Assembly: GCA_035533755.1 (NCBI GenBank)
Contig: DATLTC010000051.1
Location: forward strand, 1-64,000
Length of the DNA: 64,000 bases
Direction of reading: 5' to 3'
Origin: Gemmatimonadaceae bacterium
Lineage (GTDB): Bacteria; Gemmatimonadota; Gemmatimonadetes; Gemmatimonadales; Gemmatimonadaceae
Part shown: piece after piece, positions 1 to 5,097 of the stretch
How positions within the stretch are numbered: position 1 is the first letter of the stretch
Layout of the letters: each line of letters opens with the position of its first letter
Made by a program: the position numbers and the translations under genes
Notes under the pieces: generated by a model
Told to the model about the DNA's origin: nothing
Seen by the model: only the letters and a program-made list of their open reading frames with translations
Databases searched by the model: none

Positions 1-772
1 CGAACATCGGCGCCCCCACCCGCACGCCCTGCGCATCGGACGAGAGCACGTCCACCACCACTTCCAGATTGCGCGGATCGCCCACATCCATCAATGCGGT
101 GCCCGCCGGCACCAGCCGGTCGTGCTCCTCGAACACGCGCAGCACCCGCCCCGCCACCGGCGAACGCACCACCACCCGCGAGCCCTCCGGCGCCGACGCC
201 GAGCTCGCGCCCTCGACGCCCGCCCGCGCGCTCGCGCGCTGCGCTTGTGCCGCGGTCACCTGGTCGCGCGCCATCTCCAGCCCTCGCGCCCGCGTGTCGC
301 GCAACCGCTCCGCGCTCTCGAGATCGCGGTCCGCCACGGCGCCCGTCCGGTGCAGCTCCTGCGCCCGCGCGAGCGCCCGCTGCGCCTCGTCCATCGCGAG
401 CTGCGCCACCGCCAGCCCCGACCGCGCCTGCGATATGCCGGCGTCGGCCGCCCGCAACGCCGCCTCGGCCTGGTCGCGCGACCGCGGATCGAGCGGCGCC
501 GCCACCATCGTGAGCAGCGGGTCGCCCCGCGCCACCGAGTCACCCGCCTCGAGCCGCATGGCCAGCAGCCGGCCCGACACGGGCGCCGACACGGTCACGT
601 GGCGCAACACGCGCGTCTCGCCGTCCTCGTCGAGCGTCACGCGCAGCAGCCCGCGCGTGACTACCGCCAGATCGGCCGTCACCGCCGCCGGCCGCGCGAG
701 CCACAGGCCCACGAGCGCCACCGCGGCCACCGCCACCGCGCCGATCACGATCCTCCGCGTCTTCCTGGTCAT
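1..772 (-). CDS. HlyD/MacA-type periplasmic adaptor (membrane fusion protein), 3' end outside window
   Basis: Only the first 257 residues are visible; the gene runs off the left edge. Residues 8-25 form an N-terminal membrane anchor. Residues about 58-88 (TVSAPVSGRLLAMRLEAGDS) are the first half of a lipoyl-like barrel-sandwich domain, residues about 95-190 an Ala/Arg/Glu-rich coiled-coil hairpin, and residues about 196-231 (VVRSPVAGRVLRVFEEHDRL) the second lipoyl half. This order is standard for adaptors that link an inner-membrane ABC exporter to an outer-membrane channel. The ATG lies 3 bases after the stop of the FtsX-type permease upstream, so the two are co-transcribed. By family knowledge it would work with that permease and the ATPase as a tripartite MacAB-like exporter; the substrate is unknown. 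Confidence 0.9.
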   Translation of the reverse strand, partial: MTRKTRRIVIGAVAVAAVALVGLWLARPAAVTADLAVVTRGLLRVTLDEDGETRVLRHVTVSAPVSGRLLAMRLEAGDSVARGDPLLTMVAAPLDPRSRDQAEAALRAADAGISQARSGLAVAQLAMDEAQRALARAQELHRTGAVADRDLESAERLRDTRARGLEMARDQVTAAQAQRASARAGVEGASSASAPEGSRVVVRSPVAGRVLRVFEEHDRLVPAGTALMDVGDPRNLEVVVDVLSSDAQGVRVGAPMF

Positions 773-775
773 GAC

Positions 776-3139
776 TCACTCACCCGTCTTGAGACATTCC
801 ACGATATCGAGCGCGCGAATGCGCTGCCGCATGGCCAACCCCGACGCGCCGAACGCGCCCACGATCACCGCCGCCGCAAACCCGTACGACGCCCAACTGA
901 CCACGAGCGGGATCCGGAACAGCTCCGTGTTCCCCACGGACGATACGAACGCGCACAGGCCATAGCCCACCCCCACGCCCACCGCCATCCCGGCCACGGT
1001 GAGCAGGATCTGCTCCCCGAACACCATCATCGTCACCTCGCGCTTGGAGAAGCCGAGCACGCGCAGGCTGGCCAGCTCGCGCGACCGCTCCGACAGCGAC
1101 ACGCGGGCCCCGTTGTAGACGACCCCGAACGCGATGATCACGGCAAAGATCACCGCGATGCTGAGCATCAGCTGGAACGAATCGGCCACCGTGCGCTCGA
1201 ATCCCGCCAGCGCGGCCGACCGGATGCCGATGCCCACCAGCGCCGGCTGGTCCTTGAGGGTGAGATACAACTCGCCCTCGCGGCGCGGATCCACCGCGAG
1301 CAGCGCCCCCGAGATCGCCCGCCGCTCGCCGGTGAGCCGGGCCGCGAACTCCAGATCCGCGTAGGCGGTGGTGCCGAGCATCTCGTTGGCCACCGCGGAC
1401 ACCGCCACGCGCGCGGTGCGGCGCGTGCCCTCGCGCAGCTCCACGGTCAGCGAATCGCCGGGCGCCACGTGCAGCACCTCGGCCAGCTTGGTGGTGAGCA
1501 GCACGCCGGACGCCGGCACGCGGTGCACGCGCAGATCCTGATCCACGATCTGCCGCAACTCCGCGCCCGCCGGCAACGCGATCAGCGCCGTGCGCCGCTC
1601 CACCGTGCCATGGCGCAGCGCCACGGGCACTATCCGGAGCGGCTCCACGGCCAGCACGCCCGGCAGCCTCCGCAGGGCATCGATGGCCGTGCGCGGCGCC
1701 GCCTCGCGGAAGGTGACGCTGATGTCCTCGCGCTGCACGTACTGGAACTGCACGTTCTTGATCCGGTCGATGGCGCTGAACGAGAACCGCGAGACCACGA
1801 GCATCGCGAACGCGAGCGCGATGCCGGTGACGGCCGCCACCGCCCGCAGCGGCCGGCGCGCCGTGTTGCGCACGACGATCCGCGCCGACGGCGCGAGCCA
1901 CCGCTGCACGCCCAGCTTCTCGAGCAGCCCGGCCTCGAACCACGCCGGCGCGGGCGGCCGCATCCCTTCGGCGGGCGGGAGTCGCACCGCCGCGCGCACG
2001 GCGATCGCCGCCCCCGCCACGGCGGCGCCGGCCGCGATCAGGCACGCCGCGAGCGCCACCTCCCAGTCGGGGCGGACCGTGGCCACCGGGAAGCGATAGT
2101 ACCGCGCGTAGATCCCCGCCGTGGCCTCCGCCAGCCGGAACCCGAGCGGCACGCCCACCACGGCGCCGGCCGCCACGGGCGTGAGCGCGAGCAACAGGTA
2201 GTGCGTGCCGATCTCGCGGTTGGTGTACCCGAACGCCTTGAGCAGCGCGATCTGCCCGCGCTGCGTGGCCACGAGCCGCGACAGCACCACGTTGAGCAGA
2301 AACGCCGTGACGCCGAGCAGGATGGCCGGCATGATCACCGCGCCCACGTTGTTCTGCTCGATCTCGTCGGTGAGGAACTTGTGCGACACATGCTCCGACC
2401 GTCCGTAGGCGCCCAGCGCGCCGTAGGGCTCCAGCACCCGGTCCAAGGCGTCGATCACGTCCGGCTCCGAAGCGTCGGGCGCGAGCTGCAGCGCCATGGC
2501 GTTGAACCCGGTCTCGAGGCCCGTGGCCGAGGCGAGCAACGCCCGCGGCGTCCAGATCACCCCGAACAGCCGGTTGTCGGGAAAGAGTTCCCCGCCCTGC
2601 ATCTCGTAGATGTACTCCGGCGAGATCGCCACGCCCACCACGTGCACGCGCTCCCACCGGCCGTTGAGCACGGCCCCCAGCGAATCGCCGGGCACGAGCT
2701 TGTTGGCCTGCGCGAACGCCTCGCTGATCAGCACCTCGCGCGGCGCGCCCGGCGCCGGCATGCGCCCCACGCGCACGTGTGGCACGTTGAGCAGCGGCTC
2801 GCCCGACGCCGGAATCGACACGAACCGCCCCACGGCCGGCTCGGCCAGCCCCGGCACGTCGAGCACCGCCTCGAACACGATCCTCGGCTCCACCACGCGA
2901 ACGCCGGGGATCGCTGCGATGCGCCGCGCCACCGACGCCGGCGCGCGCTTGACCAGCACGAACACATCGGCAAAGTGATAATCGCGATAGTAGTTGGCCT
3001 GCGAATCGGACAGGAACCCACGCATGCTGCGCAGCGTCACGAACAGCGCGATCCCCGATACCGCGACCATCGCCACGGCGAGCAGCGGACCGGCCAGCCC
3101 CATCACGTCGCGCGCCAGCTTCCGGTTGAGCATCCGCAT
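776..3139 (-). CDS. FtsX/MacB-family ABC exporter permease
   Basis: A 787-residue inner-membrane protein built as two tandem FtsX-type modules. A first transmembrane helix (about residues 15-38) is followed by a large extracytoplasmic domain and helices near 262-285, 312-340 and 360-390. A second periplasmic domain follows, and the C-terminal FtsX module lies at about 665-787 (helices near 668-690, 722-745 and 752-775). Both modules carry the loop after the first core helix that contacts the ATPase (ALLKAFGYTNREIG and SLRVLGFSKREV). The eight-plus-helix layout resembles lipoprotein or antibiotic exporters of the LolCE/YbbP type rather than single-module MacB. The start is 3 bases after the ATPase stop; a second in-frame ATG two codons later is equally possible. 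Confidence 0.92.
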   Translation of the reverse strand: MRMLNRKLARDVMGLAGPLLAVAMVAVSGIALFVTLRSMRGFLSDSQANYYRDYHFADVFVLVKRAPASVARRIAAIPGVRVVEPRIVFEAVLDVPGLAEPAVGRFVSIPASGEPLLNVPHVRVGRMPAPGAPREVLISEAFAQANKLVPGDSLGAVLNGRWERVHVVGVAISPEYIYEMQGGELFPDNRLFGVIWTPRALLASATGLETGFNAMALQLAPDASEPDVIDALDRVLEPYGALGAYGRSEHVSHKFLTDEIEQNNVGAVIMPAILLGVTAFLLNVVLSRLVATQRGQIALLKAFGYTNREIGTHYLLLALTPVAAGAVVGVPLGFRLAEATAGIYARYYRFPVATVRPDWEVALAACLIAAGAAVAGAAIAVRAAVRLPPAEGMRPPAPAWFEAGLLEKLGVQRWLAPSARIVVRNTARRPLRAVAAVTGIALAFAMLVVSRFSFSAIDRIKNVQFQYVQREDISVTFREAAPRTAIDALRRLPGVLAVEPLRIVPVALRHGTVERRTALIALPAGAELRQIVDQDLRVHRVPASGVLLTTKLAEVLHVAPGDSLTVELREGTRRTARVAVSAVANEMLGTTAYADLEFAARLTGERRAISGALLAVDPRREGELYLTLKDQPALVGIGIRSAALAGFERTVADSFQLMLSIAVIFAVIIAFGVVYNGARVSLSERSRELASLRVLGFSKREVTMMVFGEQILLTVAGMAVGVGVGYGLCAFVSSVGNTELFRIPLVVSWASYGFAAAVIVGAFGASGLAMRQRIRALDIVECLKTGE

Positions 3140-3142
3140 GGC

Positions 3143-3850
3143 TCACCACTCCAGCTCGGCGGGGTCGCGCCGCGTCGGGTTCGCCTCGATGGACGCGATG
3201 CGCCCGCTGCGCATGCGCAGCACGCGGTCGGCCATCTGGGCGATGGTCGCATTGTGCGTGATGATCACGAGCGTGGTGCCCAGCTCGCGGTTGGCGCGCG
3301 CCAGCGCCTGGAGCACGACGATGCCCGTCTCGGCGTCGAGCGCGCCGGTGGGCTCGTCGCACAGCAGCACGTCGGGCCGCTTGGCGATGGCCCGCGCGAT
3401 CGCCACCCGCTGCTGCTCGCCCCCCGACATCTGCGACGGGAAGTGGTCCAGCCGCTCGGCCAGCCCCACCAGATGGAGCGCCTCGACCGCCGGCATGGGA
3501 CGCTCCGCGATCTCGGTGACCAGCTCCACGTTCTCGCGCGCCGTGAGACTGGGCAGGAGAGTATAGAACTGGAATACGAACCCCACGTGCTCGCGGCGGT
3601 ATCGCGTGAGCGCGGCATCGCCGGCGCCCACCAGCTGGTGGTCGCGGAAGTTCACCTCGCCGCCGGAGGGCGCGTCCAGCCCGCCGAGGATGTTGAGCAG
3701 CGTGGACTTGCCGCTGCCCGAAGGACCGAGGATCACCACGACCTCGCCTTCCACCAGGTCGAGGTCAACGCCCTGCAGCGCATGGACGTCGACGTCGCCC
3801 ATGTGATAGGTCTTGGTGAGACCGCGCGCGTGGAAGAGAACGGCGTTCAC
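3143..3850 (-). CDS. ABC transporter ATP-binding protein (MacB/LolD family)
   Basis: A 235-residue ATPase that powers the downstream permease and adaptor. Walker A is GPSGSGKS (residues 42-49), the signature is [14 protein letters not shown] (about 141-154), and Walker B is VLLCDEP (161-167) followed by the D-loop. The reading frame is open further upstream, but those residues are not conserved in kind. The GTG at 3850 is chosen because GGTGAG sits about 7 bases before it and the family homology starts at the next residues (ARGLTKTY). It is the first gene of a three-gene operon, ATPase, permease, adaptor. About 160 bases separate it from the divergent RiPP-like precursor gene at 4011, so the two may share a regulatory region. 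Confidence 0.93.
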
Positions 3851-4010
3851 ATGCTCACCGTAGGGCAGCCACTCGCCGCAGTCTGTCGGGCAATGATCGC
3901 CGCGGTGTCGGGGGGAATGGGTCCTGTAGGCCGGAGACTCCATGGGCACCGACACAACCCGGCGCCCGCTGTCCATAGACGGAGGACCCGAACGTCGATA
4001 GCTATACGGT

Positions 4011-4193
4011 ATGAATAAGGTCCCTACCCAGTCAGTCCGGCCTGCCCCGATCGCGCGTGCATCCGATGCATCCGCCGCGCCGGGGTACGCCAAGCCGCGC
4101 CTGATCGTCTACGGAACCCTGATCGCGATCACGGCCAAGGTTGGCTCCAAGGGTAAGTGGGACCGGTCCGGGAGTCGCCGCACCGGCTTCTGA
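4011..4193 (+). CDS. Candidate RiPP precursor with lasso-type leader signature
   Basis: A 60-residue ORF, start ATG AAT AAG. Residues 26-41 read [16 protein letters not shown] and match the lasso-precursor leader consensus YxxPxLxxxGxxxxxT at every fixed position and spacing (Y26, P29, L31, G35, T41). In known lasso peptides that Thr is at -2, which would make the core residues 43-60, [18 protein letters not shown]. Asp51 would then be core residue 9, a position normally used for the macrolactam ring. Lys as residue 1 is atypical (usually Gly, Cys, Ser or Ala), so the mature product may not be a classical lasso. No cyclase, RRE or leader peptidase is in the window. GGAGGA lies about 25 bases upstream, too far for a normal ribosome site. 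It diverges from an ABC exporter operon; a link is inference. Confidence 0.6.
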
Positions 4194-4223
4194 CGGGCCT
4201 GCCGATCGGAGGGCCACGCACGC

Positions 4224-4257
4224 AAAACGCCCCGCTCTCGCATGAGAACGGGGCGTT
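4224..4257 (-). terminator. Intrinsic terminator of the tRNA operon
   Basis: Inverted repeat AACGCCCCG (4226-4234) and CGGGGCGTT (4249-4257) with an inner CTC/GAG pairing. Read on the minus strand it is followed by TTTTGCG, so it ends transcription coming from tRNA-Thr 16 bases upstream. It also lies just past the stop of the plus-strand RiPP-like gene and may act there too. Confidence 0.8.
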
Positions 4258-4272
4258 GGAATATCTAACAAG

Positions 4273-4344
4273 AGCCAGCGCTCGGGATTGAACCGAGGAC
4301 CGCCCGATTACGAATCGGGTGCTCTACCACTGAGCTACGCTGGC
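4273..4344 (-). tRNA. tRNA-Thr (anticodon CGU)
   Basis: Minus-strand cloverleaf of 72 bases: acceptor GCCAGCG/CGCTGGC, anticodon stem CCCGA/TCGGG with loop TTCGTAA, T-loop GGTTCAATCC. CCA is not encoded. Last tRNA of the seven-gene operon. Confidence 0.96.
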
Positions 4345-4371
4345 GAAGCGACCGCCATGCGATCGCCCGAA

Positions 4372-4453
4372 TGCCCTGGCGCGGACTCGAACCGCGACGC
4401 CTTTCGGCACCACCCCCTCAAGATGGCGTGTCTACCAATTTCACCACCAGGGC
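4372..4453 (-). tRNA. tRNA-Leu (anticodon GAG)
   Basis: An 82-base class II tRNA on the minus strand: acceptor GCCCTGG/CCAGGGC, anticodon loop TTGAGGG, long variable arm GTGCCGAAAGGCGT, discriminator A. CCA is not encoded. Confidence 0.96.
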
Positions 4454-4462
4454 AAACAGCTA

Positions 4463-4537
4463 CGGGGCCGACGGGGCTCGAACCCGCGACCTCTCGAGTG
4501 ACAGTCGAGTGCTCTAACCAAACTGAGCTACGGCCCC
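4463..4537 (-). tRNA. tRNA-Asp (anticodon GUC)
   Basis: A 75-base cloverleaf: acceptor GGGGCCG/CGGCCCC, anticodon stem CTCGA/TCGAG with loop CTGTCAC, discriminator G as expected for aspartate. CCA is not encoded. Only 9 bases separate it from tRNA-Leu. Confidence 0.96.
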
Positions 4538-4577
4538 TGAACTACGCGTACCGATCACTCCCAGCCCAGAGCCGTGA

Positions 4578-4626
4578 GCTGACAGCTAACCGTCCTACTG
4601 TCCCACCCTCCTACCGTCCTACCGTG
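4578..4626. repeat. Short tandem repeats in the Asp-Glu tRNA spacer
   Basis: The spacer holds imperfect copies of CCTACCGT (4610-4625) preceded by degenerate forms (CCTACTGT, CCCACCCT) and an AGCTGACAGCTAAC doublet. The same CCTACCGT unit recurs in tandem at 8168-8210. No gene is visible here. Confidence 0.7.
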
Positions 4627-4632
4627 ATTCGA

Positions 4633-4704
4633 TAGCCCGTAGGGGAGTCGAACCCCTCTCTGCACCGTGAAAGGGTGCCGTCCTAACCGATAGACGAACG
4701 GGCC
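4633..4704 (-). tRNA. tRNA-Glu (anticodon UUC)
   Basis: A 72-base cloverleaf with anticodon stem GCACC/GGTGC and loop CTTTCAC. The acceptor GGCCCGT/ACGGGCT closes with a G1-U72 wobble instead of a Watson-Crick pair. D arm GTCTATCGGTTAGGAC is typical of glutamate tRNAs. CCA is not encoded. Confidence 0.95.
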
Positions 4705-4716
4705 TCTCGTCCCAAG

Positions 4717-4789
4717 TAGCGGTAACGGGATTCGAACCCGTGTTTGAGCCTTGAGAGGGCTCCGTCCTAGTCCCCTAGACGATACCGCC
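4717..4789 (-). tRNA. tRNA-Glu (anticodon CUC)
   Basis: A 73-base cloverleaf with anticodon stem GAGCC/GGCTC and loop CTCTCAA. The acceptor GGCGGTA/TACCGCT again closes with G1-U72, as in its UUC neighbour. CCA is not encoded. Confidence 0.95.
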
Positions 4790-4855
4790 AACGGCACCGC
4801 CGTCGGCGGCAGCCGGTGGCGGTCATCTCATCCCTTCGTCATCTCAATCATCGAA

Positions 4856-4928
4856 CAGGCCGGGAGGGACTTGAACCCCCAACCGCTGGTTTTGGAGACC
4901 AGTGCTCTACCAGTTGAGCTACCGACCT
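4856..4928 (-). tRNA. tRNA-Trp (anticodon CCA)
   Basis: A 73-base cloverleaf: acceptor AGGTCGG/CCGGCCT, anticodon stem CTGGT/ACCAG with loop CTCCAAA, discriminator G as in other bacterial tryptophan tRNAs. 3' CCA is not encoded. Confidence 0.96.
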
Positions 4929-4951
4929 ACACTCGAACTCCAGGTCAACAG

Positions 4952-5010
4952 TCCGCAGCGCGCAGCCCGCAGTTCCGAACGACCCACTGCCAACCGCCCA
5001 CTGCCAACCG
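4952..5010. repeat. Two short tandem repeats in the Trp-His tRNA spacer
   Basis: Three 7-base units ending CGCAG (4952-4972) are followed by two exact 14-base copies of CCCACTGCCAACCG (4983-4996 and 4997-5010). They are non-coding and lie inside the transcribed tRNA operon. Confidence 0.75.
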
Positions 5011-5022
5011 TCTCTTGTTGAG

Positions 5023-5097
5023 GGTGACTGACGGGAATTGAACCCGCAACCCCCGGAGCCACAGTCCGGTGCTCTAACCAATTGAGCTACAGCCACC
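5023..5097 (-). tRNA. tRNA-His (anticodon GUG)
   Basis: A 75-base cloverleaf including the genome-encoded extra G-1 opposite C73, the identity element for histidine. Acceptor GTGGCTG/CAGTCAC, anticodon stem CCGGA/TCCGG, loop CTGTGGC. First tRNA of the operon. Confidence 0.96.

Follow-up and report, generated by a model that had tools for sequence, protein, structure and literature searches.

A stand-alone lasso-type precursor gene between an ABC exporter and a tRNA array, and its probable maturation in trans

The precursor gene and its surroundings

The analyzed DNA, a 64-kb stretch of contig C51 of a Gemmatimonadaceae genome (G000), hereafter the window, carries a short open reading frame (ORF) between an ABC exporter operon and a tRNA array. 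The features of the locus are as follows:

776–3139, minus strand: FtsX-type ABC permease of the exporter operon, 79–96% identical in the other three genomes of the genus
3143–3850, minus strand: ABC transporter ATPase of the same operon, the divergent conserved left neighbor, 90–98% identical in the other three genomes
3997–4007, plus strand: AT-rich box GATAGCTATAC just ahead of the start codon, a probable −10 element of a leaderless transcript
4011–4193, plus strand: stand-alone lasso-type precursor gene, 60 amino acids plus stop, read from the ORF, with syntenic orthologues in genomes G001, G002, and G003
4011–4136, plus strand: predicted leader, residues 1–42, its end placed by alignment and by the rule of Thr at −2 (PMC10368454)
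4086–4133, plus strand: leader motif YxxPxLxxxGxxxxxT, Tyr26 to Thr41, positions −17 to −2
4137–4190, plus strand: predicted core, with Asp51 (4161–4163) as the putative ring acid at +9
Within the predicted core: Thr58, a likely tail phosphorylation site, judged from a kinase encoded on contig C62 and from PMC9266682
About 4226–4257, no strand assigned: G+C-rich hairpin between the convergent precursor and tRNA genes, present at 4/4 orthologous loci
4272–5096, minus strand: tRNA array (Thr, Leu, Asp, Glu, Glu, Trp, His), the conserved right neighbor

Analysis of the translated ORF indicated that Tyr26, Pro29, Leu31, Gly35, and Thr41 stand at exactly the lasso leader spacing, as the initial annotation had read them. 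The pattern Y..P.L...G.....T occurs once in the six frames of the window, with 0.017 matches expected from 60 order-2 Markov simulations of the window. The ORF has both the Y/WxxPxL leader of lasso precursors and a Thr two residues ahead of the predicted core, a residue that is near-universal at −2 in characterized lasso precursors (PMC10368454). Lasso cores also carry an Asp or Glu at 7–9 residues from the N-terminus, and with the core placed by the Thr(−2) rule Asp51 falls at +9, in agreement with its earlier assignment as core residue 9. The core is very basic and by the same rule would begin with Lys43, outside the first residues observed experimentally, which are Gly, Cys, Ser, Ala, and Asn (PMC12670498). 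Lasso precursors commonly have a known first residue, though this does not strictly define them, and a core starting at Gly45 would have one.

The window ORF passes none of the curated precursor models, and no Pfam model matches it. NF033521 (lasso_leader_L3, cut-off 19 bits), the leader family to which the initial annotation had pointed, gave no match at E ≤ 10, and that lead failed. NF033528 (lasso_cyano) aligns with the C-terminal half of the ORF at 18.5 bits, under its cut-off of 33, and scores 31.1 bits with an in-cluster relative from G001.

In all four species of the genus, one precursor copy has the divergent ABC exporter on one side and, on the other, the tRNA-Thr...His array that leads to efp. 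The right-hand array is the same at loci L053, L057, and L059, with tRNA-Thr present at L054; in G003 the contig stops within the array, at tRNA-Thr. Comparison of the orthologous loci revealed 47–65% amino acid identity for the precursors and 79–98% for the exporter and EF-P proteins. On these alignments, the precursor varies while its neighbors stay much the same. Between G000 (window 701–3838) and G002 (L057, 4986–8123), the DNA of the exporter operon shows 95% identity, although the other protein-coding stretches compared between these two genomes reach only about 80–86%, a difference that may reflect recent exchange or strong constraint.

Upstream of the start codon, an AT-rich block occupies −13 to −6 in 12 precursors of the genus, and a box resembling TAnnTAT or TATATAT ends about 6 bases ahead of the start in the window and at L051, L052, and L054–L061. 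No ribosome-binding sequence is evident upstream of the genus precursors. Taken together, the AT-rich block and the lack of an evident ribosome-binding sequence suggest a −10 box of a leaderless message. Two elements that had been described from the window alone, a strong hairpin beside the end of the ORF and divergence from an exporter, are both confirmed, the exporter being an ABC ATPase/FtsX-type permease pair. The hairpin is present at each of the four orthologous loci and probably serves the genes on both sides as a terminator. Since scans of 3700–4400 for sigma-70 promoters and for strict T-run terminators were both empty (the hairpin fails the strict T-run criterion in the window), the promoter and terminator assignments derive from conservation across 12 and 4 loci, respectively.

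Related precursors within and beyond the genus

With the window ORF as query, we searched 60 relatives; the genus is represented by four genomes, G000 and G001–G003. Homologues were recovered at E values of 1e-13 to 1e-5. The closest paralogue is encoded in the same genome (C62:84159–84326; 54% identity over 56 amino acids, E 1.5e-13), and its core, KVGPQGKKDHSGSRRTGY, is nearly the same as the window core. A third precursor of this genome lies on contig C5 (48% identity, E 1.6e-8) and passes NF033521 at 20.7 bits. A further weak match on contig C65 of G000 (E 0.02) is not a precursor.

The C5 gene is a second stand-alone precursor, found at a common site in all four genomes, ahead of a gene for a 166-amino acid membrane protein (L052 7478–7666, L058 8351–8554, L061 8382–8582, and L056 1327–1521); its core is arginine-rich, of the TVGTKGRRDGRRSRRRTGY type. 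Both syntenic stand-alone precursor loci lie near exporter genes. At the window locus, we found no evidence that the neighboring ABC exporter handles the peptide, and we claim no such link because another gene intervenes at the second locus and the cluster on C62 has an exporter of its own.

In total, 12 precursors were read from the loci of the four genus genomes. The initial annotation had made its reading depend on conservation of the Tyr, Pro, Leu, Gly, and Thr positions in related genomes; all five are invariant in the 12 sequences, as are Gly at +3, Gly at +6, and Asp at +9. The +3 Gly, Gly45 in the window, is thus fixed, whereas the +1 residue varies among Lys, Thr, Ala, and Asn. All 12 sequences end in RTG followed by a final Phe or Tyr. 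In all six pairs of orthologues dN is lower than dS (0.23–0.55 versus 0.60–0.94), values that come from a short stretch with high dS. Frame conservation, a weak test here, places one antisense frame nearly level with the coding frame (0.55 versus 0.58).

Analysis of 60 distinct precursors of the family indicated that the first core residue under the Thr(−2) rule is Lys in 15, Ala in 13, Thr in 12, Arg in 6, and Val in 4, the remaining listed residues being Asn (3), Ser (3), Cys (2), and Gly (2). Lys is unusual at this position by textbook rules, as the initial annotation had remarked, but the peculiarity belongs to the whole family in this phylum and not to the window ORF itself. The ring acid stands at +9 in 39 of the 60 precursors, at +10 in 12, and at +8 in 8, and many relatives carry Asp, Ser, or Asn at +3. 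The precursors at L128, L133, L135, L136, L137, and L142 have their only ring acid at +10, one position past the known range. Ring size or the cleavage rule may differ in this phylum; on these alignments, either the cyclases would accept many first residues, or the cut would fall one or two residues later.

In other genera, most of the homologous precursors are clustered with genes for B1, the cyclase, the kinase, and the nucleotidyltransferase, often together with B2, and the scattered layout with a detached B2 thus looks special to this genus. One genome of another genus, G034, has a precursor without nearby lasso enzymes (L144, around 8382) that closely resembles the in-cluster precursor of the same genome (L145, around 7945), a possible second instance of a detached lasso precursor.

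Maturation enzymes at other loci

When the G000 genome was searched for the cyclase, PqqD/RRE, and Transglut_core3 families, contig C51 gave no match; this bears out the earlier statement that the 64 kb hold no cyclase, RRE, or peptidase gene. All matches are on other contigs: the RRE protein and the macrolactam cyclase are encoded on C62 and the B2 leader peptidase on C3, so that the genome-wide scan for B1, B2, and cyclase that the initial annotation had suggested found all three, at two loci. The term orphan is thus apt for the locus 4011–4193 and wrong for the genome, which encodes lasso enzymes.

The cluster on C62 is ordered RRE (B1), cyclase, precursor, HprK-like kinase, NTP_transf_5 nucleotidyltransferase, and ABC exporter, with the paralogous precursor between the cyclase and the kinase. 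The RRE protein scores 65.7 bits against PqqD and 76.4 bits against NF033536 (lasso_PqqD_Bac), below the cut-off of 80 for the latter, and is related in sequence to the solved lasso B1 proteins 9x90 (2.5e-15) and TbiB1 5v1u (9e-13). The cyclase reaches 307.8 bits against NF033535, below the cut-off of 525, and has full Asn_synthase and GATase domains; the nucleotidyltransferase scores 158 bits against NTP_transf_5. No B2 gene lies within the C62 cluster. The B2 gene stands alone on C3 as an intact ORF whose product, scored only against PF13471, reaches 51.4 bits (cut-off 26); its orthologues in G001 and G002 pass NF033537 at 46.5 and 47.1 bits (cut-off 33). In three genus genomes, this detached B2 gene occupies a common site several kb from queC (L063 2196–2651, L072 6335–6865, and L073 1836–2243), well away from the RRE and cyclase genes.

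G001 has the same cluster as C62 but with two precursors, and in G003 the RRE end of the cluster is at a contig border. G002 yielded neither the RRE nor the cyclase, though both stand-alone precursors and B2 are present. The neighboring cluster genes are also missing there (no match to the WecA-like neighbor and a weak, partial match of 33% to the TolB-like neighbor), so the region is probably unassembled and the absence an assembly gap, or possibly a real loss.

Proposed maturation in trans

The initial annotation had left two options, enzymes acting in trans or a leader family that makes something else. The first is strongly favored because B1, cyclase, kinase, nucleotidyltransferase, and ABC exporter genes adjoin the C62 precursor, whose core closely resembles that of the window ORF, and B2 lies at a third locus. 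We consider it highly probable, from the sequence comparisons, that 4011–4193 encodes a detached lasso precursor and that a single shared set of enzymes processes it in trans.

From what is known of the family, we infer the following working. The window precursor would be transcribed separately, as its own gene. Its leader segment YAKPRL (−17 to −12) would bind the PqqD-like RRE protein B1 from C62, and the HprK-like kinase, perhaps followed by the nucleotidyltransferase, would modify the conserved C-terminal Thr. Such tail decoration would resemble that of paeninodin and pseudomycoidin (PMC9266682), and the Thr of RTG is the only invariant hydroxyl residue of the tail. The stand-alone B2 from C3 would cut between residues 42 and 43, two residues past Thr41, and the C62 cyclase, which resembles asparagine synthetase, would join the new N-terminus to Asp51, giving a 9-residue ring if Lys43 is first and, presumably, a threaded product. 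The same enzymes would also process the C62 and C5 precursors, one apparatus thus serving at least three precursor loci.

The site of the cut could differ within this same pathway. If the core began at Gly45, the ring to Asp51 would have seven residues, and if it began at Val44, eight. Gly is a classical first residue and Gly45 is invariant in 12/12 genus precursors while +1 varies, and a later cut of this kind would give the relatives with an acid at +10 rings of 8 or 9. However, it would put Thr41 further from the cut than usual, given the near-universal Thr(−2) (PMC10368454); metanodin shows that a non-classical first residue is accepted with Thr(−2) (PMC12670498), and many relatives lack Gly at +3, having Asp, Ser, or Asn. 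We regard this later cut as rather unlikely; being a sub-variant of processing in trans, it shares part of the confidence given to that reading.

Three other readings of the ORF fit the data less well. The gene could be a degenerating spare copy, duplicated out of the lasso cluster into its place by the tRNA genes and now decaying unprocessed, which would account for the low identity of the orthologues relative to the flanking exporter proteins and for the lack of enzymes nearby. Yet four species have it at one site, with the frame intact and the AT box, the 3' hairpin, and every motif position kept, and dN stays below dS in all pairs, so decay appears improbable. A YxxP leader could also recruit an RRE in a RiPP of a non-lasso class, whose core receives another modification: lasso-like RREs recognize the YxxP leaders of other RiPPs such as LPP (PMC13381572), the window core is very basic with Lys first, and the acid at +10 in 12/60 family members lies beyond the usual ring range. 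The closest paralogue, however, directly adjoins a lasso-type cyclase, the partners found are relatives of lasso B1 and B2, and no genus precursor lacks the acid at +9, which together make a non-lasso product similarly improbable. LPP in particular, a RiPP of Bacillota, was rejected as a candidate, as its leader YxxPxVLxHQxIxFETxxS (PMC13381572) differs from the window sequence, which has neither HQ nor FET. Finally, short ORFs arise spuriously in high-G+C DNA, and one might occupy the gap between exporter and tRNA genes by chance; the motif expectation for the window, the E values of the homologues, and the synteny in four species contradict this and leave it a very slight probability.

Among the closest known systems are the paeninodin/pseudomycoidin-type clusters (A, C, K, B1, B2, D, and nucleotidyltransferase; PMC9266682). 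Common to both are a YxxPxL-type leader and a discrete PqqD-type B1 (whose binding is predicted here), together with a cyclase resembling asparagine synthetase, a kinase of the HprK type, a nucleotidyltransferase, and an ABC exporter; close to the C-terminus, both conserve a hydroxyl residue. In the present genus, by contrast, the three precursor loci are scattered and B2 is detached from the cluster, the putative phosphorylatable residue is not a terminal Ser but the Thr two places before the last residue, and cores would begin with Lys, Thr, Ala, or Asn. Paeninodin-like leaders also carry WxxP (PMC13381572), whereas the window leader carries YxxP. Metanodin, likewise from an uncultured source, resembles the window precursor in Thr(−2), in the position of its acid, which suits a 9-residue ring, and in a core that starts with a non-classical residue (Asn there), but its genes are clustered and of Steroidobacterales origin, and a Lys-first core is not among the findings on it (PMC12670498). 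Citrulassin with its distant deiminase is another lasso pathway that uses a gene elsewhere in the genome (PMC9266682); there the distant gene encodes a tailoring enzyme, whereas the genes set apart in the present case are those for the precursor and the leader peptidase. Lanthipeptides with unclustered proteases similarly have an essential maturation protease far from the cluster (PMC8960859), with different chemistry and enzymes.

Our search of the open-access literature found no report of stand-alone lasso precursors. Lasso mining usually seeks a precursor adjoining the enzymes, and detached precursors and detached B2 genes would therefore be missed. In multi-precursor RiPP systems such as the prochlorosins, one enzyme set serves scattered precursors. 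For this genus, a dispersed system is plausible, and we propose it tentatively: a B1/cyclase/kinase/exporter cluster and a detached B2 may serve at least three precursors that sit at separate fixed sites on the chromosome under their own promoters, with the ring nitrogen supplied by Lys, Thr, Ala, or Asn and not by the usual Gly. The interest of the system is its dispersed architecture together with the unusual first residue. If one enzyme set truly serves three scattered precursors, the pathway would be naturally promiscuous and each peptide could be regulated separately, and the natural substrate set would make the acceptance of Lys, Thr, Ala, and Asn as first ring residues directly testable.
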